Shown: positions 3,150-63,150 of the stretch, one piece after another
How the letters are laid out: every line of letters starts with the position of its first letter
Position numbering within the stretch: the stretch's first letter is position 1
NCBI RefSeq assembly: GCF_026151205.1
Contig: NC_087077.1
Span: forward strand, 12,312,983-12,376,982
Direction: 5' to 3'
DNA: 64,000 nucleotides
Source of the DNA: Bolinopsis microptera
Taxonomy: Eukaryota > Ctenophora > Tentaculata > Lobata > Bolinopsidae
Notes under the pieces: model-generated
What the model was told of the DNA's origin: nothing
The model's input: the letters and a program-made list of their open reading frames with translations, nothing else
The model's database searches: none
Program-made: the position numbers and the translations under genes

Positions 3150-3206
3150 AACGATCTATCAGGTTACCAGGTAATATGAAAATTGATCCTTTAAAAATTT
3201 GTTCAG

Positions 3207-15061: not shown

Positions 15062-18000
15062 CTGTAATTGTAGATTATTATAATTCAATTTAAGTTTACT
15101 GTAAAGCGAAATTTAAGGAAAGCAGATTGCACAAGTAATGACTGAGAAATTTATGAAATTAAATGTAACCAATAATTTGGGTCCCTGTTATTTACAATCA
15201 TCTAATTTAAAGTGTATACTATAATTTTCATAATAATTGAATCTACCATTAAAACAGTAGACAGAGGCCAACTCGTGAGGAGCACACAGCAACACAGAGG
15301 AATTGCTGTTGTTGTTGTTGAGGTAGGCCCTATCTCGACATTGTCTTGTTCTTGCATCACAGTTTAGTCTGGTTGATACGAAGTTGGTTCCATTTCGAAG
15401 AAGCTGAGAAGGTCCCTTCCTCCCTGTCTCCCACCCAAAGTGAGAGCACAATATTCCTGCTGTTACATCTGTAAATCCATCGTCACAGACACCTCCGTAA
15501 GTCTCCATTTCAGGTTCAATCTTTTCCACTACGTGCAATCCTCTTGGATCACGTTGGGTCAGTTTGAACAGATCGGTTATGTTGCTTATCAAATCTGGAG
15601 GAGGAGCGAAAATATGAGGTTTTGTGGGTTATCTTACATGATATATTACATTATTTTGACTCTGTTTGGTATGTATATTATCGAAAGGAGCTTTTAACTT
15701 TCTTCTTTCTATATTACAGAATATTATATCTTTGAATATAACTCTAGTACCAAGTTGCTAACTCAAATTATATCAAACAGAAGTTTACCTGCATCAGGGC
15801 CACACCTTATGAAAATATCCTCAGAGTGATCGCAGTTATGTTCCAAGGAATATGTGCAGCCACTTGTAATATCATCAGTGTCGTTTAAATTACAGGCAAA
15901 GTCGTCCAAGACAATGTCATAGCCCAATTCACTGAATTTGGTTAAAATTTTAAAACCAATTTAAACCACACAAACAAACCCAAATGAAACAACACAATAT
16001 GTACAAACATGAAGACAACGACAAACATTAAAACACACACTTACAAACACACTCACATGTATAAATAAATGATAGACTAAGCCTTCAAAGAGGCAGTTTT
16101 TTAATTAATTAAATTAAATTTGTTATTCAAAACTCAAAATGACCTTGTTGATGGAAGACCTTGTGGATTTAAAGTAGCGAAAATATCTTCATCTTTAAAT
16201 CCAAGTTGTCTACATACAGCAGCGATGGAATTCTGGTTGAAGCTATCATCACAAACAGTACCATACACAAATTCACCACCTGTAATTTGTTGATACAGGA
16301 ATGTGATAGAATTTTCAACATGGAACAAATATCTCAAAGTGGAATATGGTTACAGTTCAGGCTAGGTAGTGCTATGCTAAGGTTTAGGGTTATGGTTAGG
16401 ATTCATGTGGGATTCCGTTCGGCAGGCTTCTTGGATACTACCAATAATTTATTGTTGGTACGATTTTGAACCAGGTTGTATAAAAAGTTAGAATACCTAC
16501 TTTTCAATGTGCAAATATCTTCCTTTGATTCAAATCCTTGAAGTTTAACTTTAAAGCAGAAAATCAACCTAAGAATCCTTAACACATAATAAATACAGTA
16601 ATTCTTAAGTGTTAACAGCCTTGTACAGTTTGTACTCACTCGGCATTGTGATAGAGGCTAGGAGCAGGCCAGAGGTGGCTCCACTTAAGTTGCTGTCCAT
16701 GTCTATGATCTCAAATTGTATGGTGACATTATATAGATCTGTAGCCTCATCCGATCCATCACCTGAACACGTTTAATTATTATATTTGTGATAATGATCA
16801 TACGCTATTGAGGCAGAAGGGGGGAGGATCCCAGGTTAACCTAATCTCCCACAATAAGGCAAGTGTTGTCACCAACATCATGTTATGTAATTTAAACATA
16901 GTGAGTACTATTATTAGATTAGTATAATAGTTGAAGAAGAATATCCGTAATCATGTTTAAATGACATGTTTATTGTTTACCTGATTCACAAGAAAGGAAG
17001 ACATCCTCGGAGTGAGAACAGTCGTGACTGGTCATGAAAGAGCAGCTGTCCCATTCTTCAGTAGGGCACGCTACTTCGTCAAGTGTTATATTATAGCTGC
17101 TTTGTATATCCCATATTGAACCTGAACTCCATTCTCGGGACCCTGTAAAGTTCATCTCTCTGCATATTGCTGCAGCAGTGTTATTATCGAATCTATCATC
17201 ACAGATAGTGCCACCGTGGTGTAGGATAAGATGAAGGCCATCTTCTCTGGTCTGCTGTCCATTAGAATCAACAAGCTCAAATAGACTTGCATTCCTTCCA
17301 GAGTGTTCTTCTTCTGTTAGAGAAATGTACGTTATTACAATCCATCCACATTACGTTCTTGAGACAGTTATTAAATTAGTTGTTTGTGAAAACTTTGATC
17401 ATTGAGATTAATAGTATTGACTTAGTTGTGGCACTTGAGGGAAAAAAATTCAGTTGAGAAATGGGACTTTTAGACATTACTCCTCAAACTAGGGGGCTTA
17501 AAATATCTTTTTTTATTTAGGCAGCAGCTTCCTTTTAATTAGAACTTTAAGCAATATTATTTTGTATAATACATATTATATAACGAAATCTTGAATAAAA
17601 ATAATTGTAATATGTATAATCAAGTACCAGATTGGCCGTCACTTATGCATGTAAGAAAAACGTCTTCACTGTGACCACAGTTGTGTAAACTTGAGTAAGT
17701 ACAGCTGGACCAAGTGTTGTTCCTGCAGGACACATCATCTAATGCTATACTGTACTCTTCCTGAAGCGGATATCTGGAACCAGACTCATATGAGGATCCA
17801 TTGGCTTGGTAACCCAACAGAGAGCAAATTGCATCAGCAGCATTTTGATCAAAGTTGTCATCACAGACCGTGCCATCGTTGTAGATAAGTAATCCAGATC
17901 TACCTCCATCCCGAGCATTCTCTCCACTTGCGTCTACCAAATTGAAGAGAGCTTCAGCAGAGTCTGAAAATGTGATTGACCTAATTAGTGACCTAATTAG

Positions 18001-21000
18001 TGACCTAATTAGTGACCTAATTAGTGAACTACAGGGTGTTTCAAGACTCGTGTCCAAATTTTGAATGGCCGTTAAAATCTAACAAATAGGTCAAACAGTT
18101 CGATTTTTGTTTAAATTATAGATAAACTAGAAAGCCCGTGATCACACGGAGAAAGGTAATAGTATTCTTTGGTAGTCAGTTTTTATCGCATCAAAAAATA
18201 TCCGTCACAACCGAATAATTACAGCCCATTAAAATTTAGTTCGCATTGAACACAACGTAATTACCACAAAACCGATAAAAATGACGTTAAAACAATCATT
18301 GCACGTGCACGTGCGTGAAATAACCCCCGTTACTATCATATACCTATACCTATTTCTCATCTATTTGCACGTGGGCAGTCATATGTACTGGGCGCCGTGC
18401 TCAGCCTGTCATTCCGACAAATTTCTATTCGGCGGAATAGCCTAGGGTCCCCAGGTAATGATATCACAATATTAACCCACCTGTATCACCAACTCTAAAA
18501 CCCACTGTTTTATCCCAATCAGGATTAAACTTGATGAATTCTACTGTACTAGTCACCCACTCTGAGGACAAACAATCTTCTTCATCAGATTCATCAAAAT
18601 TCATTTCTGCCACCAATACTCCGTTACACTTGATTGAAATACTTTCCAATCCCTGCTTAATGAATGTCCAAATCCTCACGTCATTTTTGGCGTCGGGTAG
18701 ATCTTGCAGCGGTGCGTCATTTTGGCACTCGGCAATGTAGAAGATAGGAGTATTACTTAATCGCACTACAATTCTTGCAAAATCGCTGCCTCTAATTTGC
18801 CCAACTTCAAAAAAGATTTCATCATCACTTCCTATCGAGGAGGTTGTCTTCACTTGAAAAGGTGTATCCTCCCAGGAGTGTGGAAACCAAACATCTTTTT
18901 GTTGAGTTTCCCAAGTCTCTCCTGAAAACAAAATAACCGAATTATTAAAACACTAGAAAACCCGTGGTCACAGGGAGGAAGCTAATAGTATTTTTTGTAA
19001 TATCAACAAAAACGATAAAAAATGCCGAATTTTACAATCTTTGCACTTGCACGTGCGTGTAACAACCCTCGTTACCATGGTTAGTGGTTACTACGCAAGT
19101 TCATATTTTTCGTTTGTTTTGCACGTGGGCGGTCGTACAGACAGACAGCAGAAATAATTCTCCGAATAGAGATTATTACATTTTAAAATACATATCAAAA
19201 ATAACCCAAATATTTCATCAACTTTCCGAACCAAGTAATTAGCTTAGTTGCCACCCTTTGGGTACTTTTAGCCATGTGTTCCATCAACAAATTAGATACA
19301 TCGAATTTAAATCTCTTACCGCGAAAACATGTCAGGTGGACATCTTCAGAATGACCACAGTTGTGCACTTCCGTATATGTACAATTTGACCAGCTCTGAT
19401 CTTGACAGTCGATATCATCAAGGTTTATATCTAACTCTTCCTGCATTTCAAACATCGGTCCATTTTCCCAGCCTGTTGATCTGGCATAATTCATTTCCTT
19501 GCAGATAACATCAGCAATATTGTCACTAAAACCATCATCACATACGGTACCCCCATTATAGGTCAGTAGACCCGGACCAAACCTCATGGCATTACCATCT
19601 TCATCAACCAGTCTAAACCTATTCCACCCAGGTTCCTCTATGTCAGGTTCCGGGACCTCTGTGACGGGACCTACAGTGTACTTACTATAAGTAAATAACA
19701 ATGGGTATTTTTAAAAGACATCTTTTAAAACAGCACAGCTCAAGAAGATTAAACTGGTTACAGGCCGAGCTAAATTTGCTTTACTAATCAGAATCTGAAA
19801 AGTTTTAAGTAATAATTGGTTTTAAAATACACTGAACTAACCAGGTTCACTTTCGAAGCAAGATCTGTCGGCATATTGCCATTCTGAGTCTGCAAAAGTT
19901 GTGTGTTCTCCAATAATGTAACACCCTGTCACCCCCCAACTGAGTGGACTGATCGCAATACCCTCGCATCTGTAAAATTTGCTTAGTGATAATTCCAAAT
20001 TTATGCAAGTATTTGTTGGCGACGAGCAGACAAGCTGCAATCTCAATTGTCTGGATAAAATGTCACTTTACAGTCCAGATTGGATTATATCATTAGTAAA
20101 ATACAAATAAAAAACCAACCTGCTCTCAGATAAACACAGCTCCACACAATCCTCCCTCCCAGTATATGTTACTTCTTGTATCACTGAGCCACTACTCCTT
20201 CTGTTGCTCATGAAGCAGGAGTCAATATCTGGTTCACCTGATCGTGTATAATCTGGTTCAACGGGTGTTGTGGAATGTGTTGGGTCAGGTCCTGGGTGTG
20301 TTACCTCTGGTACTGGACGATTACACGTCAGGAAAACATCCTCAGAATGTCCACAGTTATGTGTTTCTGAGAAGGTACAGGTGGACCAGCTCGTAGAATA
20401 GCAGTCCACATCATCCAGTGTGATATCATACCCGTTCCGGTCGTCCCTGTTTCCACTAGTATAGTTCGATGGGGATCCTGGATACCCCAATTCTCGGCAA
20501 ATAGCAATTGCAGCATTTGTGCCAAATCCATCGTCACATACAGTTCCTCCATTGTATAAGAGTAAACCTATCTCTCCATCCCCAACGTCATTGCCATCTC
20601 CGTTCACTATTCTAAATCCTTCGGCTGCAGCTTCTTCTAAAACAGCGATTGGTTACATCATAGACCAAACAATTCTTTGAAATTAATTATGTAAGAACCA
20701 ATATACCGATACTTTGCAAAGGCTGATTATGACAAACTGTCTACAAAAATGATAGAAGCTGTACAGACTGCAGATTAAGTGCGTGATAGCTTCTGTAGTA
20801 AAAAAAAGACAGTGAATGGAATTGACATGATGCGCAGTATTGGAAACCATCAACTGTATAAATAAAAGGGAAGATCCACTCAAGTTTATCCTTGAATTAG
20901 TTGTAAAAGCTGGATGAGATGACGAAGAAGACTCGTTAGAAATCTGAAGTAAGAGCTCAAAAAGAACTGCTAGAGTTATTTGGAAGCTACCTAGGAGCTA

Positions 21001-24000
21001 GCGTAAATCGACGAATAAAAATATCTTAAATTTACCTCCGCGACACAGGAGGAATACATCCTCACTATGTGAACAATCGTGGCTGGTTTGGAATTCACAA
21101 GATGCCCAATCGTCACTCACACACTGTACTTCATCCATTTTGATTTCAAAGTCGCTCTGTATGTCAAAGTCATTGCTGTTGCTCCAACTAGCTCCACTTT
21201 CATATCCCATTGCTTTACAGATCGCTCCTGCAGCGTTGTCATCAAAGGCATCATCACAAACTGTGCCTCTGTTGTAAAGCAGTAAACCTCTCTCTCCAGC
21301 CCCAACCTCATCCCCAGATTCGTTGATCAGCGTGAAAATTTCTACTGTCGCATTACCTGGAGATCGTGGGTTACTGTATCTCACTGTATCCGGTATCGTG
21401 TCTAGTCTATAGGTGCAATTACATAATATGTTACATAATATGTTATATAATATGTTAAACAATATGTTACACGATATGTTACATGATAATATGTTACATC
21501 ATTTGCTTTACTTTAAACTTGACGAGCAAGCTACAGACTACAGAGCCTGATAAGCATATTGTTTCTTATCTGAAAGTCACTAGAGCACTTTGTGAGCAGA
21601 GCATTGAATTTAATAAATTTGGGGAATGAGCACCATCACTATTTATTGGGGGTTCTCTTCCTCAACTTGATCTATGATCCTTAAGTATGATCTATGATAT
21701 TGATCACAAGGTATATAGTACAAAGCGTTTGATTTATTTTTTTAGGGTACATTTTCAAAATAAAGTGTTTCCCCCGATTGCAATCAAAGAGTTTGATTGG
21801 AGGACCAATAATTTAAAGTCATGGACATTACCTTGGGCGGCAGCACAAGTAAGGAATACATCTTCAGAATGTCCACAGTTGTGAGATGTGGAATAAGTGC
21901 ACTCCTCCCAGTCTCGGTTTCTGCACGCCACATCATCTAGTGTTATGTTTAGGGTTTCTGCGAATCTGTGAACCTGCCCACTTCTGAAGGTCATTGCTTC
22001 CGGATACCCCAGTTTTCGGCAAACTGCGTGGGCTGCATTAATATCAAAGTTATCGTCACATACAGTTCCTCCATTGTAAAGTAGCAGTCCTTCTTGCCCC
22101 CCTGACACTTGGTTCCCGTCCTGACTCATCTGACTGAACTCTTCCTGCTCCTCTTCCTGCTCCTCCTCCTCCTCCCTATCTGGGAATTGTACGGTTAACT
22201 ATCTCGTTAACAACAAGAAAACACATAAGCTATTAAGAGGTCCATGATGTGTGTAAAATCTAATCTTAAACAATAATCTCAGAACGTGTGTTTGTGCGTT
22301 TTTAATTTCAGAGCGGCTTAATCAAGAAAACGGTAAGAGTTACGGGGCTGGTTTTTATCGGTATAGTGCCGACAAAACTATGAGGAGGCCAAATGATTAA
22401 GGTTTTTTAAATCGGCTGGTGTTAAGTGGTTGAATTGATGGTTTTAAGGGGGCCGGGGGGGGGGGGGGGGGGTCTTCAGCAAAATTCTCTCGAAAAGGTC
22501 TATTCTAGCCGAGATTATTGCCGGTCAAAGGTCAGAGCTTATGTATAATTGTATTGCGTGAGCGATTTTCTAAAAATCGAGTCTAAAAATATATCTTCTC
22601 CTATATTTTTTGAGCAATCACCCTGAAACTTTCAGGATATGTTTTAGGGATCATTTAGAAGAGATAAGAAGTATTGAGCCGAATTTGAGATAGTCAAAAA
22701 TTGAAAATCGCTCACGCAATACAATTACACATAAGCGCTGACCTTTGACCAGCGATTATTTCGACTAGGAACAACAATGTTCCATGGGACCGAAAGCAGC
22801 TGATAGATATCACTCCCCTCTATCAGAAACAACTATAAAATCAATTTCGAGAGAATTTTGATGAAGACTTCCCGGCCCCCTTAAACCACAAATGCAAATG
22901 TTACGTAAAATGGCTCACATTTTCTTCCTCCTCGCTCTCTCTCCCATTACTGAATACTGCATATTATGTAGCGTTGGTTCAAACTTTTGACTAAAATTGT
23001 CGTAAACCAAATTTCATGAGAAAAAATTTTTCGACGACTAATTTTAAAGGAGACCAAAATTTCAGTAGAGCATATATGACATGACTATTGAATATTATTA
23101 AGCTTACATTTCCTACATTGATTATAGGGCTTTATAATTAATATAAGGACATCACTGTTCCTATTGTACAAAACCGTACCAAATTCCTATTGCACTTAAA
23201 GGGTTAGAGCTCCTCTTGGAGATAACATTTTTAATCGATCCATCTCAATGCATGGTCTGTTGAAACGGCTGAAGGATCATATCGACATAAACTAGGTCGT
23301 ACCGACAGAAATGGTAAAGTCAAAAAAGGGTGAAAAAGAAACCGAACAGCGTACTGAAGAACTTAGTGACACAGAGTCACAGACTCTGGATCTGATGTTA
23401 TTGAAATTCCTGAGTAATGCATTGCAGCTTTAAAATCTGTAATCTGCAGCTTAACCTGCTCAGACGGGTGCTCATTGTCGAATTGATAGATCACGTCCGT
23501 CTATGTCCGCTTGTCACATAGAATCCAAAAAGGACAGGACAGGACATTGCCGGATATTGACGAACAAAAGTGGACAGCAAAATTTGCTAAATGTTGCTAA
23601 ATTTTGCTAAATTTTGCTAAATTTTGCTAAATTTTGCTAAATTTTGCTAATGACGGCTAATAACGGCCAGGTAGCGTAGTTGGTTGATCATCGGATTTGT
23701 AATCGTGAGATCGCGAGTTCGAATCCCACTGCCTGCCTAGTTGTGGGGTGAGCGTCGTTGACGCTCTGCTAAGGATCCCGAGTGGTATATGTAGCCCCAC
23801 GGTTCACTCAGCCGAATTCTCGAGAAATCGGGTGTGAGGGTTAAATGAGGAGCTGTGCTTGATCAACACAGCGAAGCCTCGGGCGAAGAAAGTGTGGCAT
23901 AGTGCCTTAACCGTCGCTGGCCTTAGGAACGATCCTTCGGCTTCTTGTAATTTTAACTTCAAGCAATTGTCTAGAAACTTCCATTAACTTGATAAAATTG

Positions 24001-27000
24001 AGAACGAAAGCACTATTAATACAATCACAGGCTGCTGACTTAAAAGAGACTTGGACTCCAAACAATTTTAAGTTACAGTAATTTAATCTAATTGCAGCGG
24101 CACATAACATAATTTAAACTATTGCTATCATTATTGTACTACAGACTGAAAATATCTCAGATCTATTTTGGGCGTTTTTAACAACTTATAGTTGTAATTC
24201 TTAAATATTAGATATCCTAATTTATAACTTTTTAATCAGAGTGAATTAATAATTGATATTTGATAATTTATATATTTGATAGTTTAGTCTGATATTGATA
24301 TTAATATTGATTATATTGATATTGTTATTATTGAATGAAGCTAACTCCAGACATAAATAATACTACTTCTATTAACAAAGGGACTTGGAGTATAAACGAC
24401 CAATTTTGCATAATTGTCTTTCCAACCAAGAATTCAGGAGGCAAGGGTGGGTGCGTAAACTTTATGGTCTGCACTCTCAGATCCTGTATCACCCTGGATT
24501 CATTTCGACGTATTTTTGGTAAAAGTATACATATACTTTCTGGTCACTCTCTTGCTACTCCAAGTCCCCTAAGATATATGGTCTAAAGTTTGCACTAGTT
24601 TAAATATATAAAATATGTTTTTGTCTGCTTTAACTGATACTAAATAAAATTGTTGTTTTCTTGAAATTGTTGTTTTCTTGTAAAGCTCTTCCTTGAAAGT
24701 GCTGGTTTACATTGTAATGCAGGTAATGCCGAAGTAAAATAACAAAGGTGGTCGACTCATTCGATGGCCTTGTTGCGTCGCAACGAATCCTCATAAGATA
24801 AGATAAGATAAGATAAGATAATGAGGCAGGCGGTGATGATTTTTCAAAAAAGTTCAAATTGTATGTGGTTCATTCTGTAGATCCTGTTTTAACTTAAATT
24901 AGGTATATTCGGGCACGAAGTGAGATGTCCAGGACTGTTGTACTTGGATCATACAAGATCCAGATAACCTTGTGACGCATTGAGGCCCTTGAGGCACCAC
25001 TTTGAGGCCCCTGAGGCACCACTTTGAGGCACTGAGGCCCACGGAAAACCATGCACGATAAAAAACACTTGAGCTTAAAAAGGAAAAATGCGTTTTGTAA
25101 TTTACCCTGGTCACAATCAGTTAGGGAACTTGCAGTCCATCCACGCCTTGCTGTTATTTGCGTAGTGCCCACCAGAAAGCACTCTCGGTCAGCCCAATTC
25201 TCGGGACTCACGGCTACTCCTTGACAGCGTGGAGTATCATCACACCATTCCTGACAACTCTCAAAACTCATGAACCGTCTCTGTTTTAATTTCTGGGAGT
25301 CCGGAAACATACCAACATTCTGCTCGTAGCTTGTATAACAGCCTGAAACATATTATAGATACGTTTGCGTACCGTGTCTATATATTATATGATCGCAGTT
25401 TATAATTTAAAATTCAGTAAGAAAACGTAAAAGAAAAAGTCAAAGAATCAGAATAGCATTAGTCCGATTTTGGTTTACATTTTGGTGACATTAAAAAGTT
25501 TGATCAAGTCAACGCGAAGTCATGGACAGAAGTTGAGAAAATGCTTAATGTTAGGTGATTTCCATTCAAATTAATTGAATCATATCGATATAAACTAGGT
25601 CGTACCGACAGAAATGGTCAAGTCGAAAAAGGGTGAAATAGAAACTGAACACTGAACAGTGTACTGAAGAACTTAGTGGTACAGAGTCACAAACTCTGGT
25701 TCAGATGTCATTGAAATTCCTGAGTAATGCATTGCAGCTTAATCTGTAATGCTCAGACGGGGTAGACTAAATTTGTCGTTCTTAAGGGGGCCGGGGGGGG
25801 GGGGGGGGGTCTTCATCATATCTATCAGCTGTTTTTGGTCCCATGGAAAAATATTGTTCTTAGCCGAAATTATTGCCGGTCAAAGGTCAGCGCTTATGTG
25901 TAATTGTATTGCGCGAGCGATTTTCAATCGCGCGCCCTGAAAATCGATGTCTAAAAATCTATCTTCTCCTACATTTTTTGAGCAATCACCCTGAAACTTT
26001 CAGGATATGCTCTAAGGACCATTTAGAAGAGATTGTCGGGCCAGAATTTTGAGATAGGCCTTAGAACATTTTTTATTCAATTTTAAAAATGTTGGACCTC
26101 GTTTTTTGACGATTTTTTCAGGTCCAAGATTTTCAAAATCGAATAAAAAATGTTCTAAGGCCTATCTCAAAATTCTGGCCTGACATTCTCTTCTAAATGG
26201 TCCTTAGAACATATCCTGAAAATTTCAGGGTGATTGCTCAAAAAATGTAGGAGAAGATAGATTTTTAGACTCGATTTTCAGGGCGCGCTATTGAAAATCG
26301 CTCGCGCAATACAATTACACATAAGCGCTGACCTTTGACCGGCAATAATTTCGGCTAAGAACAATTTTTTTTAAAGAGAGGCTGGGCCAAGATAGCCCAC
26401 GAGAGGATAGCATTGAGATGCTCTGCCTACCTCTGGCGTGTGGCAACCTTGGGGAAGGACAATATTTTTCCATGGGACCAAAAACAGCTGATAGATATCA
26501 CTCCCCTCTATCAGAAACAACTATAAAATCAAATTCGAGAGAATTTTGATGAAGACCCCCCCGGCCCCCTTAAGGTAAATGGAATGGAAAATGATCTCAA
26601 AAATTCGAAAAATGTGACTAAAATTGTGGTAACCAAATTTATTGTGAACCAAATTTATTGGCCCTAAGGTATATCATAATTACACTGGCATGTAATACTA
26701 AATAAACATATTAGGGAAGGGAGCGCTCATAACGATCTGTTTGGACCGTATGTAGAGAGTTCATACTTTCATGCGACAATGTGATGCATGTTTTCAAATA
26801 TGCGGGTGTGGTGCGGAGTTAATAAGGGTTAATTTCTATTGATTATTGTTTAAGTTACTATTGTTTAAGATACTATTGGATATGTAAGGGCGCTCTGAAT
26901 AGAATTGCTCACCTAATGTGGGTTTTGACTCAGCGGTAAATACTCCTAACTGTGGCAGTGATATATCCCGGCCTACATAGGCTATTTAAGGGTCCATATT

Positions 27001-30000
27001 GTGTGTAAAGTCTAATATTTATATAATGTCTTTGTCCAATGTTCATGATGAATCGTCAAATCTAACTTTATATCAATTTGTCTGAACACAATTCTGTGAC
27101 AATATCGATAGTTCTGGGTCTTAATAATATTTCTCAAATTTATGCCTACAGTTCAATATAATGTTGCAATGATAAATGTTTACCATCATTAATGCAACTA
27201 AGGAAGACGTCTTCAGAGTGCCCACAGTTGTGAGAAGTTGTGTAGCTGCAACTCTCCCAGCTTCTATCTTCACATCTCACATCATCCAGTGTGATATCGT
27301 ATCGCGATCGGTAGCCTACCTCTCCACCAGACTGCCATTCTGATGAACTAGCATAGCCCATTGTTCTGCAAATAGCATCGGCTGTGATGTCATCAAATTC
27401 GTTGTCACAGACGGTTCCCCCCTTGTAGAGCAACAGCCCAAGTTCTCCGGGTGAAACGTCACCATACTGTCTGACCAGTTGGAACAAGATGATTTGTTCC
27501 GTGGGCTCCACTATTGTCTCTGTTGTTACAGATGGTGACGCGGAAGTGGATTCTTCTGATGTGGTCATGTTTTCTGCATCTGTTGTCATTAGTTGACCTT
27601 CCGTTGTACCTGTAGTTTCATCTTTGGGCGGTGTTGTTGGTTCAGTCGTTTGTTCTGCTGCAAACGTATGATGTAAGGATTTAAAGACCCCTTATAGTTG
27701 ATTTAAAAATACATGTTATGTTGTCTTCGAAATATGTTTAATCTGATGTAGTTTGTATATCTACCTGGACATTCTACTTCATCAGACCCATCACTACAAT
27801 CATCTTTGCCGTCACAAACCCAGCTCCTGTAGATACACCTGTCTGGACACCGGAACTCGTCCTCGATACACTCCGGTACTGCTGTCACCCCTGCAGATTT
27901 CGTCGATTTCAGGTGCCGACAGGACCATAAAAATTAAAAGCAAACATACATTTTTTCCCTTAAAATCGTGCGCTTTCTGCGCAAACAATTGGCTTCAACA
28001 AAAAAAATCAAACATGGCTTCAAATCCAAATTTGAACAAGAGATTTTTCACTTCCTCTCGATAAACTCAATTTACAACCCAAAATAAAGTCTCAAAGGGG
28101 GAAATTTCTCAGGCACCCCTGCAGATTTCGTCGATTTCAGGTGCCGACAGGACCATAAAAATTAAAAGCAAACTTAAATTTTTCCCCTAAAATCGAGCGC
28201 TTTCTGCGCAAAAAATTGACCTCAGCAGAAAAAAATTAAACATGGCTTCAAATCCAAATTTGAACCAGAAATTGTTCACTTCCTCTTGATAAACTCAATT
28301 TTCAACCCAAAATAAAGTCTCAAAGGGGGAAATTACTCAGGTCAGGATTGTAGGCAATGATTATGCCAAACCATTCATTTTTGTAAATTCATTAAACTTT
28401 CAATTTAGCCTAAAACACCCTATTTCGCAAAATTGTACCGGGGGCTGCGCCTCCCAAGCCCCCGCCAATGGGGTCCGCCCCTGGACCCCGCTTGAGGCTG
28501 CGCCCCCAGACCCCTGCCACAGTATGCAGCTTCGCTCGCCGACAGCCCCCCCCCCCCCAAAGAAAAATCCTGGCTACGTGCCTGAGCAAAATATATGTTT
28601 AGGGCTTTTCAGATGATTTGGCTCCTCGACAGATACCGACGTACGCGCCACCCGACTACCATGAGCCTCTTAACGGTCAATATGTAGTTTAGGTTTACCT
28701 GGCCCGTAGGATACAAATGTGCCCGAGGAGAAAAAAAGCAAACCTAAGAGGATTTCTCGGGAACTTAAAAGTTCACCTCAAAACGAAATCTGCACCTATG
28801 ACTTAACTGCTGTAGTCGACTCACTTTGTTCGAGTGTCAGTGTTGTCGGTGTTGGTGTTGGTGTCAATGTCGGTTTCGGTTTCGGTTTTGGTGTCGTTGA
28901 ATCTGTGGAAAGATAGACATTAGAACCACAATTACACTGGGTGATATTCAAATGCAAGTTAAGATCAGTTTCTGAAGCTATTAACACATAAGCTATTTAA
29001 GGGTCCATATTGTGTGTAAATTCTAATAATTATATATAATGTCTTTTTCCATGATGAATCTTCAAATCTAACTTTATATCAATTTGTGACAATATCGATA
29101 GTTCTTGGTTTTAATAATATTTCCTAAATTTATGCCTACAGTATAATATAATGTTGCAATAACAAATGTTTACCATCATTAATGCAACTAAGGAAGACGT
29201 CTTCAATGTGCCCACAGTTGTGAGAAGTTGTGTAGCTGCAACTCTCCCAGCTTCTATCTTCACATCTCACATCATCCAGTGTGATATCGTATCGTGATCG
29301 GTAGCCTACCTCTACCTCAGACCGCCATCCTGATGAACTAGCATATCCCATTGTTCTGCAAATAGTATCGGCTGTGCCGTCATCAAAATGGTCGTCACAC
29401 ACTGTTCCCCCCTTGTAGAGCAAGAGCCCAAGTTCTCCGGGTGAAACGTCACCATACTGTCTGACCAGTTGGAACAAGATGATTTGTTCCGTGGGCTCCA
29501 CTATTGTCTCTGTTGTTACAGACGGTGACGCGGAAGTGGATTCTGGTGATGTGATCATGATTTCTGCTGTTGTCATTTGTTGACCCTCCGTTGTACCTGT
29601 AGTCTCATCTTTGGGCGGTATTGTTGGTTCAGTCGTTTGTTCCACTGCAAACGTATGATGTAAGGATTTAAAGACCCCTTATAGTTGATTTAAAAATACA
29701 TGTTGTCTTCGAAATATGTTTAATCTGATGTAGTTTGGCTTGTTTTATTTTATTATTTTGTTGCGAGTTGTATATCTACCTGGACATTCTACTTCATCGG
29801 ACCCATCACTACAATCATCTTTGCCGTCACAAACCCAGCTTCTGTAGATACACCTGTCTGGACACCGGAACTCGTCCTCGATACACTCCGGTACTGCTGT
29901 AGTCCACTCACTTCGTTCGGGTGTCGGTGTTGGTGTCGGTGTTGTCGGTGTCGTTGGACCTGTGGAAAGATAGACATTAGAACCACAATTACACTGGGTA

Positions 30001-49500: not shown

Positions 49501-52500
49501 ATCACGTGACAAAGATGCGGTGGAGTGGGGACTCAACATGCTACAAGCTAACACTGTTGCTAAGGAGACGGTTGCCAGGGAGACTGTTACCAAGGAAACT
49601 GCACGTGACAAAAAGAACAAATCTTCCAGCGGAGACTGTGGGAGGCTAGCTAGTTTGATAGAGCCCAGGTTGTTGGGGATACTAGCCTCTCTAGCTACTC
49701 TACAGCGGGGCAAGTTTACTGAAGAGTCCTATTTGGTGTTGGAGAGTGTTATTGAGCTGATGCAGATATTTCCTCCCACCACCCTCACCAAGTGGAAAAA
49801 CAAACTCCTCTCCATACTTAGGTACTACTCTTTTTACACGTCTTGTTAAATGGTGAGAAAATTCGTCCAAACTTTTCGGCTTAGAAACGTTTAAATATTT
49901 TGGAAATGTACTTCCTGCCCCCGAAAATGTACTTCCGGTAGTATATTTTGACGAGTTTCCATTTTGCGAAGCCTTATCCGGAATTTTTTCTTCGTTATTT
50001 ACAGCAGCTGTGCTGTTAACCCATTAGGGACGATAGGGTCGTTTTTATGACCCACCTTTTCTAGACAAAAAACCAAATTACTAAACGCTATAACGAATCT
50101 ATAGCATATATGCTCAAAATTTATTGGGCTTCATTATATGTAGCCCAATTAATTTTGAGCATATATGCTATAGATTCGTTATAGCGTTTAGTAATTTGGT
50201 TTTTTGTCTAGAAAAGGTGGGTCATAAAAACGACCCTATCGTCCCTAATGGGTTAAATATTCATCACAGATCTGTGATAACGTCTATCACAGATCTGTGA
50301 TAACGTCTAATGTCTATCACAAGTAAGAACATGAACTATAATTATGTTTTATCCCTGTAGGAACGGGTTGAACTGTCCTGATGCAGTGGTAAGACACGAC
50401 GCACTGATTGGGTGGGACACGTTTGTGCGAGTAAGCGAGAAGAAGTGTGTAGGACCTTTACTGGGGGAAATAGTTGCTGTGTTGCTCCCTCACCTACCTA
50501 CCTTCCCTTCTCAAGTCAGTGCTGCTCCATTAACTAATTTAGTTAGTTAGTTACTATCAAAGCTTATCAAAACTTTCTTTGGGAATAGAACTTTGAGCAC
50601 CTCAATCGTGTCTTGTGCTATCCTCAGTGACCTTGCTAGATGATGATTTTCCGTTTTTCAAAGCTTTCTTTGGGAATAGAACTTCCAGTACCTCAGTTAT
50701 GTCTAATGTCATCCTCAGTGACGTGACCTTGCTAGATGATCATTCAAGAAAAATTCAGCTGAAATCTGAAAATGTTTATTCCGTCGATTTTTTTTCGGGA
50801 TATACTGGTTCCAATACCTTGATGGCGACTTTTATCACTCTCACCGACCTCACTGATTGGTCACTGGTCAAAAATTAAGCTAAAACCGCGAAATTTCGGT
50901 CAAGGGGACGGCAGAAAAGCTTCTTTTCAAAACCTCCTTTTATATTCTGATGATTTTCCGTTTATCAAAGCTTTCTTTAGGAATAGAACTTTGAGTACCT
51001 CAATCGTGTCTTGTGCCATCCTCAGTGACCTTGTAAGATGGTCATTGAAGAAAAATTCAGTCAAAACAGTGAAATTTGGGTCGCAGAAAGCTAAAATTCG
51101 AATATGTCCTATCGGGGGGACATATTTAAAATTTTCATTGTATCAAAGTTTTCTCCGGATATACTGGTTCCAGTACCTTGATGGCGACTTGTGTCACCCT
51201 GACCGACCTCACTGATTGGTGACTGGTAAAAATGTCAATCAAACCGTGAAATTTCGGTCAAGGGGACGGCATAAAACCTTCTCTTCAGTAATCTGTAAAT
51301 ATGAAGATGTCACATAAGGTCGTGAAATCTATTTGCTGCATATAATTTCTCTTACATTTAATCTAGACACAAATAACCTCTTAAAATATCTGTTATCTAA
51401 TTAATTAAACGTATCTTAATTAACTAATTAATTAATATGTTTGTTGTCAGGTGATTCAGACAGTGAGGTTCCTGTTGTTAGAGAACGAGAGATGGAGCGA
51501 GGTTAAGAACTTTGTAGGTGACATAGGCTGGCTCACTATCCCTGACCACATGGAGCTTGCGGATGTGAAATTAAAACTACTCTCTCACGGTAAGGTTGAA
51601 CCGCAAGAAGTTCCGTTATTGTTTATCTCAATAAGTTAATAATTAATCAATTAATTAGTAAAATGTAGACTCTAACATCATGTACCAGTACATGCAGGAA
51701 AGAAGGGAGAAGTGATGACGGAGGAGCGGTTTAAGGACAGTTTGAAGTCCCATATTTCGGGAGTTGCTGCAGAGAGTTCAGAAGTTCGGGCACATTCTCT
51801 AACTTCCCTTCAGCAACTTCTCCATACCAACCAGGATATCATTAACCATATGGTGCTAGGTAAGTGCTAAGTTATCATACCAACAAAGATGTCAGTTTGC
51901 CATCAATCAAATAATTAAAGCAGTTCCTACTTATTGTATTTTGACTGTCATACCATCTGGTGATCATCACCATTCTCCATTTATTCGAAAGATTTTATAT
52001 TCTTTTTCTTGTCGAACGGATGACATGCATGGGAAACATTTTCCAATCGAGATATTGTGACTTTCTGATGGGCTGAAAATTTGAGTGATGTCATGTTTCT
52101 TCATCTTCGCAATTTTAAGAGAATTGATGTGTTGTGCCAACAAGTTTTAAGCTAATTGGTTTACAGGAAGTGAGACGGTAGATAAGATGATAACAGAGCT
52201 AATAAGCACCTTGTTATGCGGAGTAAGGGATCCTGACCTTGACATCAGAATCCTCTTCTGTACTTGTTTAGGTAAAAATATAATCATATTAAATATTATA
52301 TCATATTCCTGAACCTGTTTCCCGAGCATATTATGTTTATGGACACGTTCATTGAAGTTTGAGGAAATTGGTAAATTTCTAAAACAGCGTTTTTGACGAT
52401 AGTGGTTTAATTTTAACATATATTAATCTAGCGAGTTCATAAGTTCTGAACATTAGCCACGTGACCCATACTCCCATATGCACAGCTCAAAAATAAAATG

Positions 52501-55500
52501 TATTGCTTTTAGGCACTATTATGTAAAAAATGTCACATTTTTGGGACATTGTTTACCATAGCTGCCCAATTAGCATTTTTTGGTCTAAAATATAGTAGAT
52601 TAGGTCAATCTAACAATTATGATACAATGTAGGCCTAAAGGGCAGTGATCGAACGGCTTTAAGGCAACATTTCGTAAACTTTGTCACACTCAGAATACGA
52701 GACCTCTTTTCTACTGTGAGTTGTCCTCAAAACCCTTTCAACTCATTATTTGATAGTTCTTCTGCCAATCATAGCCCTAAAATATGTTGTTTTGAAAAGT
52801 TAACAAATACATGCACTTGGCTATTGGGAAATGATGTAAATTCTGTCACATTATATGGAATTTGAAATTCTGGGTGAATTTCCGAAATCATTTATTTCTG
52901 ATTTTGGTTTGGAAGGCGTGAAAACTCTATATGAGGACGATACACGGATACAGTTGATTGAAGTATAGGGCAGTTGATGTAAACAGCGTCACACAATGAT
53001 ATGAAATCGTAAATGGACACGTTCATGTTGAAGTTTAAGGATATTGGTAAACCAAAAAAAATAGCGTGTTCAGAAGTTCTGAACATTAGCCACGTGACCC
53101 ATACTTCCATATACACGGCTCAGAAATACAATTTATTGTTTTTAGGCACTATAATGTAAAAAATGTCACATTTTTGTGACTGTGTTAACCATAGCTGCCC
53201 AATTAGCATTTTTGGTTTGAAATATAGTAGATTAGGTCATTCTAACAATTATGATACAACATTTGGCTAAATGGCAGGGATCGAACGGTTTTGAGGTAAT
53301 ATTTCGTAAACTTTGTCACACTCAGAATACGATACCTCTTTTCTACTGTGAGGTGTCCTCAAAACCCTTTCAAATCATTATTTGATGGTTCTTCTACCAA
53401 TCATAGCCCTAAAATATGTTGTTTTGAAAAGTTAGCAAATACATGCACTCATTTGGAAATGATGTAAATTCTGTCACATTATATGGAATTTAAAATTTTG
53501 GGTGAATTGCCGAAATCATTTATATCTGATTTTGGTTTGGAAGGCGGGAAAACTGTATATAAGGACGATGCACGGATAGAGCTGATTCAAGTTAAGGGCA
53601 GTTGATGTAAAAATTGTCACAATAATAATAAGGGCAGTTGATGTAATGAAAGAAAATCTATCTAACTAATGCAATGGCTGATGTGACGAAATTTACATTT
53701 CTTGACCCTCTTTTGAAGAAACATGCCTCGATTAATATTCAATATTCTTCCAGGAATTATTAGTAGGTTATTATTGAGCAAATCAGAACTCAAGTTTAAC
53801 AATTCTGAGTTTAATTTTACTAAGTTACCGAAATGTGACGAAATTCACTTTTCCTGCCCCAACAGTATAATTTCAATGTGATGAAAAATGGGCATGGGTT
53901 TCTATATTTCCTTATCTCTGAATTAATCATTTCAAACTATAATTAGGACTGTTGATGTGAAAGAAAGTATATCTAAATTTTACAATGACGTATGTGACAA
54001 AATTTACATTTCTTGACCCTATTTTGAAGAACCATACCCCGATTAGAATTCAATATTCTTCCAGGAATTATTAGTAGGTTATTATTCAGCAGATCATCAG
54101 AACTCAAGTTTGACAATTCTAAGTTTAATTATACTAAGTTACCGAAATGTGACGAAATTCACTTTTCCTGCCCCAAAAGTATAATTTCAATGTGATGAAA
54201 AATGGGCATGGGTTTCTATATTTCCTTTATCTCTGAATTAATCATTTCAAACTATAATTAGGACTGTTGATGTGAAAGAAAATGTATCTAAATTTTACAA
54301 TGACGTATGTGACGAAATTTACATTTCTTGACCCTATTTTGAAGAACCATACCCCAATTAGAATTCAATATTCTTCCAGGAATTATTGGTAGGTTATTTT
54401 TCAGCAAATCAGAACTCAAGTTTAACAATGCTGAGTTTGATATCACTAATTTACCGAAATGTGACGAAATTTACTTTTCCTGCCCCAACAGTATAATTTC
54501 AATGTGATGAAAAATGGGCATGGGTTTCAATATTTCCTGTATAAATCCATTCCAACTATAATAAGGCCAGTGATATGAAAGAAAATCTACCTAACTAATG
54601 CAATGGCTGATGTGACGAAATTTACATTTCTTGCCCCTATTTTGAAGAATCATACCTCAATTAGTATATAATGTTACTTTATCACCATCACTATGTCGAT
54701 AAATTAGTTATTTTGCCAACACGGAGCAAATAAAGTTATAATTTTTTTTGTGACGAAATTTACAAATTTTTACCCTGTTCAGGTGTTGAAATTTATCCAA
54801 TGTTAACATATCACTGCCATATAATAATTTATATGACCGGCGTATGGTTGAAATATTGTTAATTGATCCATAGTACGTAATATAGGGTTTTTAAGTTGGT
54901 ATACTAATATTTACTCAATTTCACACATGTTGAGATATCATACAAATTTATATGACTAAATTTACCTATTTCTGCCTTCTGTATTTGTATCTGCCTATAA
55001 CAATGAAATATGTGAACAATTCCAAACACATTCAGCTCACAAAATAATGCTAGACTATTCGGCATTTCTTGTCAGGATGTCATAAACATCCCTCATATAA
55101 ATTTCTTAAATGTGTGACGGAGTTTACATGGTGCTACCATTTAAGGAAAAAAGTCGCTAAATATGTAGATAATAGTCATATACAGTTATTCTATGAATTG
55201 GAAATTCGAAAATGTGGTCAAATACGGCAACAAGGGGTCCATATAAACTCCGTCACGTTTTTATAGTGTGACAAAGTTTACAACTCACTGCCGGCTGCAT
55301 TTAAGCGATATCTTATCGTCTGATAAAGATATCGTTATGCGACAAAGTTTATCTAGAGGATGAAACGATTATCTTAGGGTTAGAGGGTTTATATAGTTTC
55401 ATAGTGTGACACATTTTACATCATCGTGCCATTCAGTAGGGTCACTAATATTTACCAATATCCTCAAACTTCAATGAACGTGTCCTTATATATTTTCTGT

Positions 55501-58500
55501 GTAACTGGTATCAGTGATCAGCAAGTTTCCATGACAACCCTTAATTCCAGGAGAAGTAGGAGCAATTGACGGGGGATTACTAGGATCTGTAATCTCAACT
55601 CCAACCTCCCAACACAAAGTATATCTGGAAGGAATAGAGGACGAGAACTTCGGACCCGACCTGCTAGTAGTGCTCTCTAAAGGTTACAGGAACAGCTCTG
55701 ATCAGTTGAGTGAGGACAAGTTCGCGTTTGCTATCCAGGAGGTGTTGTCAGCGTACAGACGGTGTGGGGACCAGCTGTTCTCCAAGTTCAGGGACAGATT
55801 TGATGAGAGTGTCATGGAGATATTGGAACCTCATATTAACTCTAAGTAAATTACATTCTAATGTTTTACATTAAGTTTTACATTAAGTTTAAGTATGAAG
55901 TTATTGTATAAATGATGAAATTATTATGATGTTGGGAATTTTTTAATTTACTACTCAACCCCCAGATACATTTTACAACAACTTCACCCCGACTAACGTT
56001 ACCCCCATTATATTGCCAGGTACATACTAAACCCCTCCCCCGACTAACGTTACCCCCATTATATTGCCAGGTACATACTAAACCCCTCCCCCGACTAACG
56101 TTACCCCTATATTGCCAGGTACATACTAAACCCGCACAACGAGCCCAGTAGAGCTACTCCAGTATTTAAAAGCGAGAAGAAAACAACTTTTGAGGAATGG
56201 CTGTCGTGTTGGACGGGTATACTGTTACAGTTAGTGGTCGAGGGCAGTAACCATGGTAACCAGAGCAGTAACCATGGTAACAATAAACTAGCTTCTCTTC
56301 TTATTCCTCCTCTAAAGATCATCACTTCCACTCAAACTGGTAAAATAACTGTTACCATGACAACACTACTGTTACCATGACAACACTACTGTTACCATGA
56401 CAACACCAGTATTACTAGGAAAACGCTGTTACAATAAAGACATTTCTGTTACCATGACAACTATTTAACTATGACAACACTACTTTCTGTGTTTATCATG
56501 AAATCAGTTTGCTTATCTAACTATTACAGATACGCTACAATTTCTACTGCCAATACTGGTACTACAGATCCTGCTAAAAGGAAGCACATCAGCAGTGGAC
56601 CTGGTACTTACAGAGGTACAGGCAGTCCTCTACGCTACACAAAATAACACTGTAAGTCTAGATCACAGTATCTGCACTATCTCTATTCAGGCTAGTAATG
56701 ACAATGTCACGTGACCAGGCTAGTAATGACAATATCACGTGACCAGGCTAGTAATGACAATATCACGTGACCAGGCTAGTAATGACAATGTCACGTGACC
56801 AGGCTAGTAATGACAATATCACGTGACCAGGCTAGTAATGACAATGTCACGTGACCAGGCTAGTAATGACAATATCACGTGACCAGGCTAGTATTGACAA
56901 TGTCACGTGACCAGGCTAGTAATGACAATGTTACGTGTGTTGTGATGTTACCAGATATAAAATGATTATTTCCAGGTGTTGTGTGATGTAACGAGACTAA
57001 TAGCTCAGACTGTGTTCTCACTTATTGACTACATTGTTATCTGGATCAACAAAAAACGCCAAATAACTACTAAAGGTAAGAGTAGATATCAACTCAGAAT
57101 ATATTGTACGTGAATTTTAACAGTTCGTGTTCCTGCTTAGCTACTCGAAAGAATTAATTACTAAAAGTTACTTAAGTGCTATAAAAAGGATTTAAGTTCC
57201 AACAGCAATGATACTATTTACAGGTAACAGTGCGTCCGTAGCACTGTTAACACGAGTAGAGAACACACTGAACAAGGTGTCTAAACAAGTTATAGCAGTG
57301 TCCGCCTTCAACTGTGGGGCTTACAACAGAGCACTCATGTATCTGGAGTATAAAAACAAGATCACTGATCAGGTATTATAGTTCCATGGTCCTGAACTTT
57401 AACTATTTAGCAGCAGGTGGTACTGGTAATTTCTATTTTTCTCGTTTGATCTCCAGGTACCATTCATATTATATAAACTGTCCCCTATGTCATGTCTCTA
57501 ACTCTGAATCCTTTAAATGTGCCCAATTACTTTACTGAATCTACTCTGTCAGAGGGACTGGGAGCTGCTGCAAAGGATCTACGTTAAAATGAGCGAGTTT
57601 GACGGAGTAGCAGGGGTAACTGCTTCTAGGAACACACCGGCCTCTCTAAGAGAACAGATACAAGGTTAACAATTTGTATATTAGTAAATTAATTTCGTGA
57701 TTATTCACTACTTCATAGTTCATTTTGTTATCATGAACTGTTGCTGCTAACCCCGCTAACCCTGCTAACCCTCAGCTCTAGAGACAGAAGGGAGACTACA
57801 AGAAACTCCTCCAATGTACGAGCAGGGGATAACACAATTCCCAGGGGACAGTTTCTTCGTTCAGGGCATGTTAAAACAACTCCTGCACACTGGGCTAGTC
57901 AGTATTGATTATTATTATTATTGTTAATTAGTTAGATAATTATCATAAGTTAACTAGATAATTACTATTGATTAATAGAAGTAAATATAGATATAGTAAC
58001 TAGATCACAACTCAACCTTTTACCGTGGTTCTTTGTGAATGTTCACGCCATTTTCTTTTACAACACTACAAATTCTTACTATAAAGTTTGTGAATTGTGA
58101 TGATTGAAAATACTCCAGTCACCAGTGTGCTTTTTACTGAGACTAAACTATTCTCAGCACACTTCTCTGGTGGGAGTAGTTAATGATAGGATAAGAGAAG
58201 ATCCAGCTTTAACAGGAGATCTGAATGAATACAGAGTACAAGCTGCCTGGTCCCTCGCCAGGTTGGTTACTTCTTAATGTTTGCTATTTAAGATTAGTTA
58301 TAGTTGATGAATAATGTGAGAAGGTGTTGTTCTCTTGGACTTGAGCAAATATATACTAGATAAACTTACTATTCACTAAATACACTAGTATAGTATATTA
58401 TACACAGAACTAAACTAACTATTTTACCTACAGGTGGGATCTAGTAGATGAGTACATTTCCTCTACACCTCACGATACTTCCTGGGCAGTAGGGGTGGGG

Positions 58501-60970: not shown

Positions 60971-61830
60971 GATGTCAATTATAGCAAATAAATCAGAATA
61001 AATACTGTACAAAAATGACAATACATAGTATCGAATGATATCTTGTTTGCAATCCAATACAAACAAATCCCCATTTCTCGTGTGCCCAAGTCTATATCAC
61101 AGAGTGCAGGGAGGATAGGGATTCTAATGTTGACAAATAACTTCGTGGGGCAGGGAGGGGAGAGAGGGTCTCTTGTTCAGTCGTCTGAGAGATGTGATCA
61201 CTGATTTGACCAATCCCATCTTCTGTACTCTTTTCTTCTGGTTGGAAGGGTGATCTGAGTTGCCAGATGATCTCTCCTCAAGATCAGGGTTCATAGTTGG
61301 TGAGGGAGGTGAAGTGGTAGAGTCAGTACAGTTAGAGCGAGCGAGAAAACTTTGAAAGAGATGGGGATATCTTTCCCGCATAGAGCATTCAGAGTCCTGT
61401 ATCATGACGGAGGGCTCTAAAGAGTCGTCGTCCGAGTTCTGTGTCTCGTAGCTCTCCAGTTCTGAGAGACAGCTACCCTCTAAGATGAAAGTTAGCAGTC
61501 CTATTTTAGAGGTCTCCGTGTTCTTCTCTTCAAAACAGTTGTCAGTAGAGTGGAATAGTATGCTACAATTCACCTGAACTGTGCGGGTACGGAAGGTGGG
61601 CGTCGCAGGTTTGATGGGACTGGGACAAGTTGGAGCGAGGTACTTGGAGCTGAGCAGAGAGATGCGGGCAGATTTAGCTGGAGAGGAGCAGAATTGAGGA
61701 AATGGGAATGAAGGGGATTTAGCTAGAGACATATCAGCAGTTCAGAAAATAGTTCAAGCTAACAAGAAGATTGTTAAATAGTTAGATAGTTGATGAAAAC
61801 TGTAGAGTTTGGACGAAATTTGAATATGAA
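60970..61830 (-). repeat. Left arm of an inverted gene duplication
   Basis: Contains the coding copy 61124-61732 and matching 3' flank (GAGAAATGGGGATTTGTTTG at about 61080-61061) and 5' flank (ACTATTTTCTGAACTGCTGAT at about 61751-61731). The partner is about 62310-63150. Confidence 0.9.
61124..61732 (-). CDS. Intronless gene of unknown function, minus copy (202 aa)
   Basis: Starts MSLAKSPSFPFPQFCSSPAK: Ser/Pro-rich N-terminus, a conserved core KIGLLTFILEGSCLSELESY, a Ser/acidic linker, and a basic helical tail KKRVQKMGLVKSVITSLRRL ending HEVICQH. No signal peptide, no membrane segment and no family I recognise. Compared with its partner it keeps the full frame. Most differences look like substitutions plus a three-codon length change, so both copies are under constraint or recent. 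The lack of introns beside intron-rich genes is compatible with origin by retroposition. Confidence 0.75.
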   Translation of the reverse strand: MSLAKSPSFPFPQFCSSPAKSARISLLSSKYLAPTCPSPIKPATPTFRTRTVQVNCSILFHSTDNCFEEKNTETSKIGLLTFILEGSCLSELESYETQNSDDDSLEPSVMIQDSECSMRERYPHLFQSFLARSNCTDSTTSPPSPTMNPDLEERSSGNSDHPSNQKKRVQKMGLVKSVITSLRRLNKRPSLPSLPHEVICQH

Positions 61831-62309: not shown

Positions 62310-63150
62310 TTCACATTTTGTCTACATTCTACAACTTACAATTAACTGTTCAACACAACAAGTCCTTGATACTATTTTCTGAACTGCTGATATGTCTCTA
62401 GCTAAATCCCCTTCATTCCCATCTCCTCAATTCTGCTCCTCACCAGCTAAATCAACCTCCAGCTCCAGACTGCAGTACTCCTCCCCAACTTGTCCCAGTC
62501 CCATCAAACCCGCAACCCCTAACTTCCGTACCCGCACAGTTCAGGTGAATTGTAGCATACAGTTCCAGAGTAACAGCTGTATTGAAGAGAAAAACACGGA
62601 GACCTCTAAAATAGGACTGCTAACTTTCATCCTAGAGGGTAGCTGTCTCTCAGAACTGGAGAGCTACGAGACACAGAACTGTTATGACTACTCTCTAGAG
62701 CCATCTATCTTGTTACAGGACTCTGAGTGCTCCCTAAGGAACAGATATCCTCATCTCTTTCAAAGTTTCCTCGCTCCCTCTAACTGTACTGACTCTAGAC
62801 CTTCACCTCCATCTTCAACTAGGAACACTGACCTGGGAAAGAGGTCATCTGGCAACTCAGATCACCCTTCCAACCAGAAGAAAAGAGTACAGAAGATGGG
62901 ATTGGTCAAATCAGTGATCACATCTCTCAGACGACTGAACAAGAGACCCTCTCTCCCCTCCCTGCCCCGCGAAGTTACTTGTCAACATTAGAATCCCTAT
63001 CCTCCCTGCACTCTGTGTTATTAACTTGAGTTGAAGAGAAATGGGGATTTGTTTGTATTGGATTGCAAACAAGATATCATTCGATACTGTGTATCGTCAA
63101 TTTTGTACAGTATTTATTTTGATTTGTTTGCTATAACTTACATCACGACT
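62310..63150 (+). repeat. Right arm of the inverted gene duplication
   Basis: Mirror of 60970-61830, including 5' UTR, coding region and 3' flank up to TTTGCTATAACTTACATCA. Confidence 0.9.
62392..62991 (+). CDS. Intronless gene of unknown function, plus copy (199 aa)
   Basis: Paralogue of 61124-61732, sharing the same start, core KIGLLTFILEGSCLSELESY and basic tail, differing mostly in the Ser-rich linkers. It has the better promoter (TATATAAG at 62278). Function unknown. Confidence 0.78.
   Translation: MSLAKSPSFPSPQFCSSPAKSTSSSRLQYSSPTCPSPIKPATPNFRTRTVQVNCSIQFQSNSCIEEKNTETSKIGLLTFILEGSCLSELESYETQNCYDYSLEPSILLQDSECSLRNRYPHLFQSFLAPSNCTDSRPSPPSSTRNTDLGKRSSGNSDHPSNQKKRVQKMGLVKSVITSLRRLNKRPSLPSLPREVTCQH

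Follow-up and report, generated by a model that had tools for sequence, protein, structure and literature searches.

The 64,000-nucleotide stretch of the Bolinopsis microptera genome analyzed here (contig NC_087077.1, positions 12,312,983 to 12,376,982; hereinafter the window) contains, at 52341-55485, a 3145-bp non-coding DNA transposon with terminal inverted repeats (TIRs) of about 36 bp and a 4-bp target-site duplication (TSD), TTAT. The element lies in an intron of the ATR gene and is filled almost throughout by copies of a sequence box, nearly all of which point toward the nearer end. These boxes are predicted to constitute a docking array for a transposon-specific protein, probably a transposase supplied in trans or a partner of such an enzyme, a reading to which we assign a probability of about 0.5. 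It is favored because the polarity of the boxes follows the ends of the element, because clusters of boxes were found only in this family among those checked, and because, with one exception, the copies have not shrunk below 2 kb.

A scan with the 12-position core TGTGAC-N4-TTTACA, requiring a match at 10 or more positions, detects 23 sites in the element, compared to 0.67 on average and never more than 3 in 60 first-order Markov resamples, whereas the same scan of the remaining ~61 kb of the window yields 11 sites, which is about the chance rate. Likewise, a motif search allowing up to three mismatches produces 20 matches in the window, 18 of them inside the element, against 0.97 expected for the entire window. 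These counts bear out the original prediction, made from the sequence of the window, of about 20 copies of a 16-bp motif, and shuffled sequence does not reproduce them. The sites themselves are real: of 19 motif coordinates that it gave, 18 are no more than 7 bp away from a site of the same orientation; however, one (52540) is 18 bp off, and the list omits the site at 54951+ and the inward-pointing sites at 52542+, 53175+ and 55242-.

The core is only a part of the box, which is about 26 bp long and bipartite, TGTGAC-N4-TTTACA-N8-CC, because the CC columns, which lie outside the criteria by which the sites were picked, are conserved as well; thus, the motif extends 10 bp beyond the 16 bp originally described, to CC at positions 25 and 26. 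Comparison of all 231 pairs among 22 box sites gives an average box identity of 79% in the 212 pairs with flanks less than 40% identical (mean flank identity 28.7%, about chance), but this figure is inflated given that the sites were chosen by likeness to the motif, so that the CC columns provide the clean test. In 12 representative sites (the weakest of 13 representatives being excluded), C is present at +25 in 11 and at +26 in 10, with p values of 2.3e-8 and 6.7e-7 (1.1e-5 and 3.2e-4 after correction).

The orientation switch along the array, already apparent in the original prediction, reflects outward polarity in both arms and is located between the boxes at 53606- and 53682+. Each of the three inward-pointing boxes lies 20-25 bp from an outward one, forming a head-to-head pair. 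When such pairs are collapsed, a single central switch is present in 27 of the 31 TIR-bounded copies of the family that were examined, the exceptions being an old copy (L027), a 627-bp copy (L035), a copy with a triplicated center (L042) and one with an extra site within an insertion (L045). The spacing of the boxes is even, with 12 largely non-redundant gaps of 138-202 bp (mean 157, coefficient of variation (CV) 0.11); when 13 sites were placed at random 20,000 times, the CV never fell below 0.29. This set omits gaps that were duplicated recently, the inward partners of the head-to-head pairs and the 76 bp that separate the boxes on either side of the switch, and one of the gaps retained (151 bp, before 54611) is partly redundant; for all 19 gaps between outward boxes, the CV is 0.15.

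The ends of the element are repeated across the genome (264.65 Mb in 232 contigs): a TIR search with up to two mismatches identifies 974 sites, compared to none for the reversed pattern, and the family comprises hundreds of copies, about 490. A search with the whole element, in which 40 of 1036 candidates were scored, shows 19 places, including the copy in the window, that match over essentially its entire length with at least 96% identity. Among the ends flanked by TTAT (60) and by ATAA (41), 33 pairs fit a 4-bp TSD and none conflicts with it; ATAT and TTAA are palindromic, so that pairs with these flanks do not test the TSD. On contigs C1-C3, 69 of the 83 exact TIR ends adjoin ATAT (44), TTAT (11), ATAA (10) or TTAA (4), and genome-wide, there are 186 ATAT ends versus 18 TTAA ends. 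The target is thus a 4-bp W-TA-W (NTAN) sequence, and the termini are GG..CC. The family combines TIRs in many copies and a TSD of constant length with the absence of a transposase gene inside the element, as expected of a non-autonomous TIR DNA transposon.

Non-coding DNA transposons often shrink to miniature inverted-repeat transposable elements (MITEs). The present family has not shrunk to MITE size because, among 74 TSD-matched pairs of ends (33 TTAT/ATAA pairs, a complete set, and at least 41 ATAT pairs among the 100 of 186 ends listed), only one is shorter than 2 kb: one pair is below 1 kb, none is at 1-2 kb, 53 are at 2.0-3.3 kb and 20 are longer. Five TTAA pairs outside this set span 2.8, 2.8, 3.15, 3.4 and 4.3 kb. 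Set against the common fate of such transposons, this size floor suggests that the interior of the element may matter. The arrays themselves are variable. The repeat units differ by subfamily (315-bp dimers, 152-bp units or 111-bp units), and the number of boxes per copy ranges from 4 to at least 38, the latter in a copy with an expanded array (L040); in L042, it is the central region around the orientation switch that is triplicated.

Exact copies of the box number 626 in the genome, compared to none for the reversed pattern. Among 100 listed places of these copies, four clusters without an exact TIR nearby, as judged by eye, were chosen for inspection (L022-L025); all have the box layout of the family, although the TIR is decayed in three of them and lacking in the fourth, and box clusters were accordingly seen only in this family where checked. 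Two further loci, L027 and L028, are old, decayed copies. In the case of L028, three same-strand TIRs (C8:17964628, 17967769 and 17970882) are located about 3.1 kb apart, and the two of these that L028 covers lie in mostly unrelated sequence.

The coordinates of the features of the window copy are given in Table 1. Together with both TSDs, the element accounts for 96% of the enclosing intron, and the joined exons that flank this intron match ATR chains in the PDB with an E-value of 1.2e-19. As originally predicted, TIRs of about 35 bp flanked by TTAT enclose no gene: all stop-to-stop frames overlapping the element are 91 amino acids or shorter, and no Rfam match is found at the gathering threshold. 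The left arm contains the repeat noted originally, but with a spacing of 628-676 bp according to the direct-repeat comparison rather than a fixed 674 bp, and its second copy opens with a degenerate internal TIR. There are 16 inverted matches in the element region, each of 21-44 nt and almost always coinciding with or adjoining a TIR or a box; no long inverted homology between the two arms is among them, which sets the element apart from foldback elements of the Tetris type.

Table 1. Features of the transposon copy in the window and of the intron that encloses it.
Feature	Position in window	Strand	Basis
ATR intron enclosing the element	52272..55550	+	splice-site reading, frame, flanking-exon match
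TSD TTAT, left	52337..52340	.	TTAT adjoining left TIR; pairing test
Left TIR, begins GGACACGTTCATTGAAGTTTGAGG	52341..52376	+	inverted-repeat and TIR searches
Left-arm duplicated block, spacing about 628-633 bp	52429..53621	+	direct-repeat comparison
Head-to-head box pair, left (52522-, 52542+)	52522..52557	.	core scan; single-strand hairpin z -3.8
Box, outward	52673..52688	-	core scan
Box, outward	52835..52850	-	core scan
Box, outward	52978..52993	-	core scan
Degenerate internal TIR, opens second left-arm repeat	53015..53051	+	repeat comparison
Head-to-head box pair (53155-, 53175+)	53155..53190	.	core scan
Box, outward	53305..53320	-	core scan
Box, outward	53463..53478	-	core scan
Box, outward, last before orientation switch	53606..53621	-	core scan
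Right-arm tandem array, 315-bp dimers of two ~155-bp units	53647..54664	+	tandem-repeat analysis
Box, outward, first past switch	53682..53697	+	core scan
Box (10/12)	53834..53849	+	core scan
Box	53993..54008	+	core scan
Box (10/12)	54148..54163	+	core scan
Box	54308..54323	+	core scan
Box	54460..54475	+	core scan
Box	54611..54626	+	core scan
Box	54749..54764	+	core scan
Weaker box (10/12)	54951..54966	+	core scan
Box	55113..55128	+	core scan
Head-to-head box pair, right (55242-, 55267+)	55242..55282	.	core scan; hairpin z -1.7, not significant
Box closest to right end	55405..55420	+	core scan
Right TIR	55450..55485	-	inverted-repeat and TIR searches
TSD TTAT, right	55486..55489	.	TTAT adjoining right TIR

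Elsewhere in the window, two very similar open reading frames (ORFs) of about 200 amino acids (61124-61741 on the minus strand and 62383-62991 on the plus strand) form an inverted duplication. The region 17600-29700 contains several minus-strand ORFs with a recurring cysteine pattern, which we take to resemble that of scavenger-receptor domains.

Under the favored reading, the element would be a non-autonomous cut-and-paste DNA transposon, both arms of which are arrays of sites for a single sequence-specific DNA-binding protein. The putative site is the ~26-bp box, oriented toward the nearer end, and the protein would load onto the arms and assist in synapsing or marking the ends; most likely, it is the transposase, provided in trans, or a DNA-binding partner of that enzyme. 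Further sites might have spread by tandem duplication of units of ~110-155 bp or of dimers thereof. We infer that the boxes are bound by protein, that this protein is the transposase or its partner, and that the array promotes mobility; transposase-binding sites, suggested in the original prediction as an example of a protein-binding array, are the best fit to the polarity, the limitation of box clusters, where checked, to this family and the size floor, but neither the protein nor an autonomous copy has been found.

The original prediction also held that the motif is better conserved than the DNA between its copies. This is the case across dissimilar units, as attested by the CC columns, but within related, aligned units the difference is modest and not significant in any single comparison. 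In a comparison of two subfamilies (8 and 11 copies), substitutions affect 1 of 120 core positions versus 38 of 1184 others (p = 0.11). For the two left-arm repeats, 2 of 60 core positions and 49 of 475 others are substituted (p = 0.056), as are 5 of 20 positions of the 4-bp spacer. When the two comparisons are pooled, the core differs at 3 of 180 positions versus 87 of 1659 others (p = 0.018). In L027, an old copy, one of the 32 CC positions is changed. The substitution pattern weakly hints at selection that might act among active elements, with neutral decay after insertion.

Several observations weigh against the docking-array reading. The pooling was picked afterwards and omits L027, and neither of the pooled tests is significant alone. 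For the left-arm repeats, the CC columns are no better conserved than background (1 of 10 positions differing), and in L027, the core (41 of 192) and the other positions (440 of 1826) decay alike. The wide range of box numbers indicates that no exact number is needed. Furthermore, the single deletion form among the TSD-matched pairs (L035, C5:18442998-18443632, 627 bp), which has a matching TSD, suggests that the element may be able to insert without a full array, unless this copy lost its array after insertion; on the other hand, its retention of four subterminal boxes, including one head-to-head pair, speaks for the docking array. Finally, there is no recognizable autonomous copy or transposase, for which the original prediction recommended a search, in the long copies that were read, i.e., 14 of the 20 TSD-matched pairs that exceed 3.3 kb (three of these, L036, L037 and L040, in part), plus lone TIRs. 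All copies read (L009-L015, L027, L028, L033, L034, L036, L037 and L040-L046) make up a minority of the ~490.

Among the 14 long pairs, six contain reverse-transcriptase domains (L009, L011, L012, L013, L014 and L036), one contains a transposon with its own inverted ends (L034), two are internally expanded (L040 and L042), and five carry unnamed insertions (L037, L041, L043, L044 and L046) with no Pfam match in the ORFs scanned or no ORF of 110 amino acids; unnamed insertions are present in L015 and L045 as well. For insertions in long copies, RVT_1 was identified in 5 of the 7 proteins of one Pfam scan and in 2 of the 10 of another. Retrotransposons encoding reverse transcriptase are nested in L009, L010, L011, L012, L013, L014 and L036. 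The DNA transposon nested in L034 (positions 673-4506) has inverted ends that begin AGTACAGTCAAATCCGTC and a single scanned ORF without a Pfam match, and the one nested in L033 (1251-6521) has inverted ends of about 1.5 kb and a DDE_Tnp_4 fragment. Genome searches for candidate partners yielded 26 piggyBac and 114 DDE_Tnp_4 matches, which led to no partner upon comparison by eye with the listed TIR places; the two piggyBac loci read contain no family TIR, and the one DDE_Tnp_4 match within 4 kb of a listed TIR (C4:746625) is part of a nested long-TIR element. The THAP domain served as a proxy for the Kolobok transposase; upon inspection by eye, none of its 43 matches is less than a few kb away from any listed TIR, and the two loci read contain no family TIR.

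The main rival is nucleosome-scale packaging, whereby a host architectural or transcription factor would bind one box per nucleosome, and the phased arms would silence, insulate or open the element. The nucleosome-scale phasing invoked in the original prediction is compatible with the size of the box spacing and with the strong ~10-bp periodicity of A/T dinucleotides in the window copy. The autocorrelation is 12.5 for the whole element and 10.3 for its non-redundant part, compared to at most 7.7 in 50 overlapping windows of host DNA taken from these 64 kb, none of which reaches 10.3. Periodic A/T clusters of this kind, which the element resembles, are known from worm introns. A precedent that also counts in favor of this rival comes from placozoans, whose chromatin loop anchors are marked by a motif from a Mutator TIR (PMC12221973). 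However, the periodicity is not phase-locked to the box, with a fraction of 0.86 of the jitter controls being equally strong, and seven other copies of the family score 4.9-8.1 versus 1.0-7.6 in eleven other stretches, so that the family as a whole overlaps other DNA. The 111-bp spacings in related copies and the confinement of box clusters, among those checked, to this family likewise argue against a host factor. The ctenophore loop-anchor motif is GC-rich, which rules it out as the identity of the box and counts against the chromatin explanation. Thus, the A/T periodicity raises the nucleosome reading but does not establish it, and we regard this rival as rather unlikely.

A neutral satellite seems to us less probable again. 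It would attribute the tandem repeats to unequal exchange or slippage and the box, without any bound protein, to a relic of an old ~155-bp unit or a recombination aid. The arrays clearly do expand, as the 315-bp dimers, the 111-bp and 152-bp units, the copy with at least 38 sites and the triplicated center of L042 attest, and old L027 loses boxes at about the background rate. Against this stand the units of the arms, which have the box in common but little else (28.7% flank identity), and the polarity mirrored about the center; neutral descent is not expected to preserve one 26-bp segment while the remainder saturates. Further down the scale is a self-packaging transposon, in our estimate improbable, the arms of which would be nucleosome-scale filaments with one 26-bp box per ~155 bp loading an end-pointing, transposon-specific protein. 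If so, the array would be both a transposition enhancer and a chromatin organizer, and an early-branching animal would have evolved its own, independent counterpart of the CENP-B-box satellite; the copies would owe their size of more than 2 kb, instead of MITE size, to selection acting on the boxes and their spacing. It is highly improbable that the boxes serve other mobile elements, namely retrotransposons without long terminal repeats, as targets for insertion into the family: several long copies contain reverse-transcriptase ORFs and a few insertion junctions are near a box, but, as judged by eye rather than by a formal test, the junctions occur at varied places, several away from boxes. 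The docking array for a transposon-specific protein remains the preferred explanation. Internal tandem repeats of non-autonomous transposons are easily dismissed as passengers; here, two unrelated-looking arms keep the box, its polarity and its spacing, and the copies stay above MITE size, so that a function of the array is directly testable, and the hundreds of copies per genome would permit footprinting over many insertions at once.

Among known superfamilies, the GG..CC ends and ATAT-rich targets rule out piggyBac (CC..GG termini and TTAA TSD), and AcademX, which is characterized by a TSD of 3-4 bp and the Academ transposase/nuclease, agrees with the element in TSD length only. The TSD of Harbinger is TWA. 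Those of Pangu, NuwaI and NuwaII are ANT, CWG and C|TNA|G, respectively (PMC4482050). The 4-bp NTAN duplication rules out these PHIS elements (Harbinger, Pangu and Nuwa). Kolobok (PMC9587614) has a 4-bp TSD and RR..YY termini as in this family, but is described as TTAA-specific, whereas here ATAT dominates and TTAA is rare (4 of 83 on C1-C3). The termini thus resemble those of Kolobok although the TTAA rule fails; a relaxed Kolobok would be compatible, given that solo LTDRs of the KolobokP lineage are reported to have TSDs of 3-4 or 4-5 bp.

Short protein-binding sites are a recurrent theme in transposons and satellites. Spm/En (bound by TNPA) and Ac/Ds contain many short transposase-binding motifs in both subterminal regions, but these motifs are dense and confined to the ends, whereas the boxes described here are ~155 bp apart and present nearly throughout the element. 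The CENP-B box is a protein-binding site of about 17 bp in nucleosome-sized alpha satellite repeats that is bound by a transposase-derived protein; such a satellite was rejected on the basis of 0 matches to the CENP-B core on either strand of the element. Searches for papers on Spm/TNPA and on subterminal repeats and nucleosomes returned none. In the literature on transposon superfamilies, ctenophore transposons and the CENP-B box, the family is not described at the level of titles and the beginnings of abstracts, which does not prove that it is unpublished, and at the same level, no match was found to the combination of two unrelated-looking arms, an outward 26-bp box and even spacing.

The closest precedents come from Drosophila and the oyster. 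The Tetris foldback element of Drosophila virilis (PMC4079207) is also non-autonomous and lacks coding capacity, and each of its arms contains internal tandem repeats, which vary in number and form arrays inverted relative to each other. However, the arms of Tetris are long TIRs, reaching 1,735 bp, their repeats measure ~220 bp and the TSDs 8-10 bp, whereas the arms of the present element have only the ~36-bp TIR and the box in common and the TSD is 4 bp; the lack of long homologous inverted arms rules out a Tetris-like foldback. Cg_HINE of the Pacific oyster (PMC7492417, in the part consulted) is non-autonomous as well and consists mostly of 140-180-bp tandem monomers, some of which are otherwise dissimilar but have two conserved segments in common; it differs in its Helentron-type ends with a microsatellite and a palindrome, and array inversion does not figure in that part of its description. 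The terminal TIR and the 4-bp TSD rule out a Helentron or HINE. Thus, arrays of internal tandem repeats have precedents in Tetris and the oyster HINE; the new part is that two unrelated-looking arms carry one and the same outward-pointing box.

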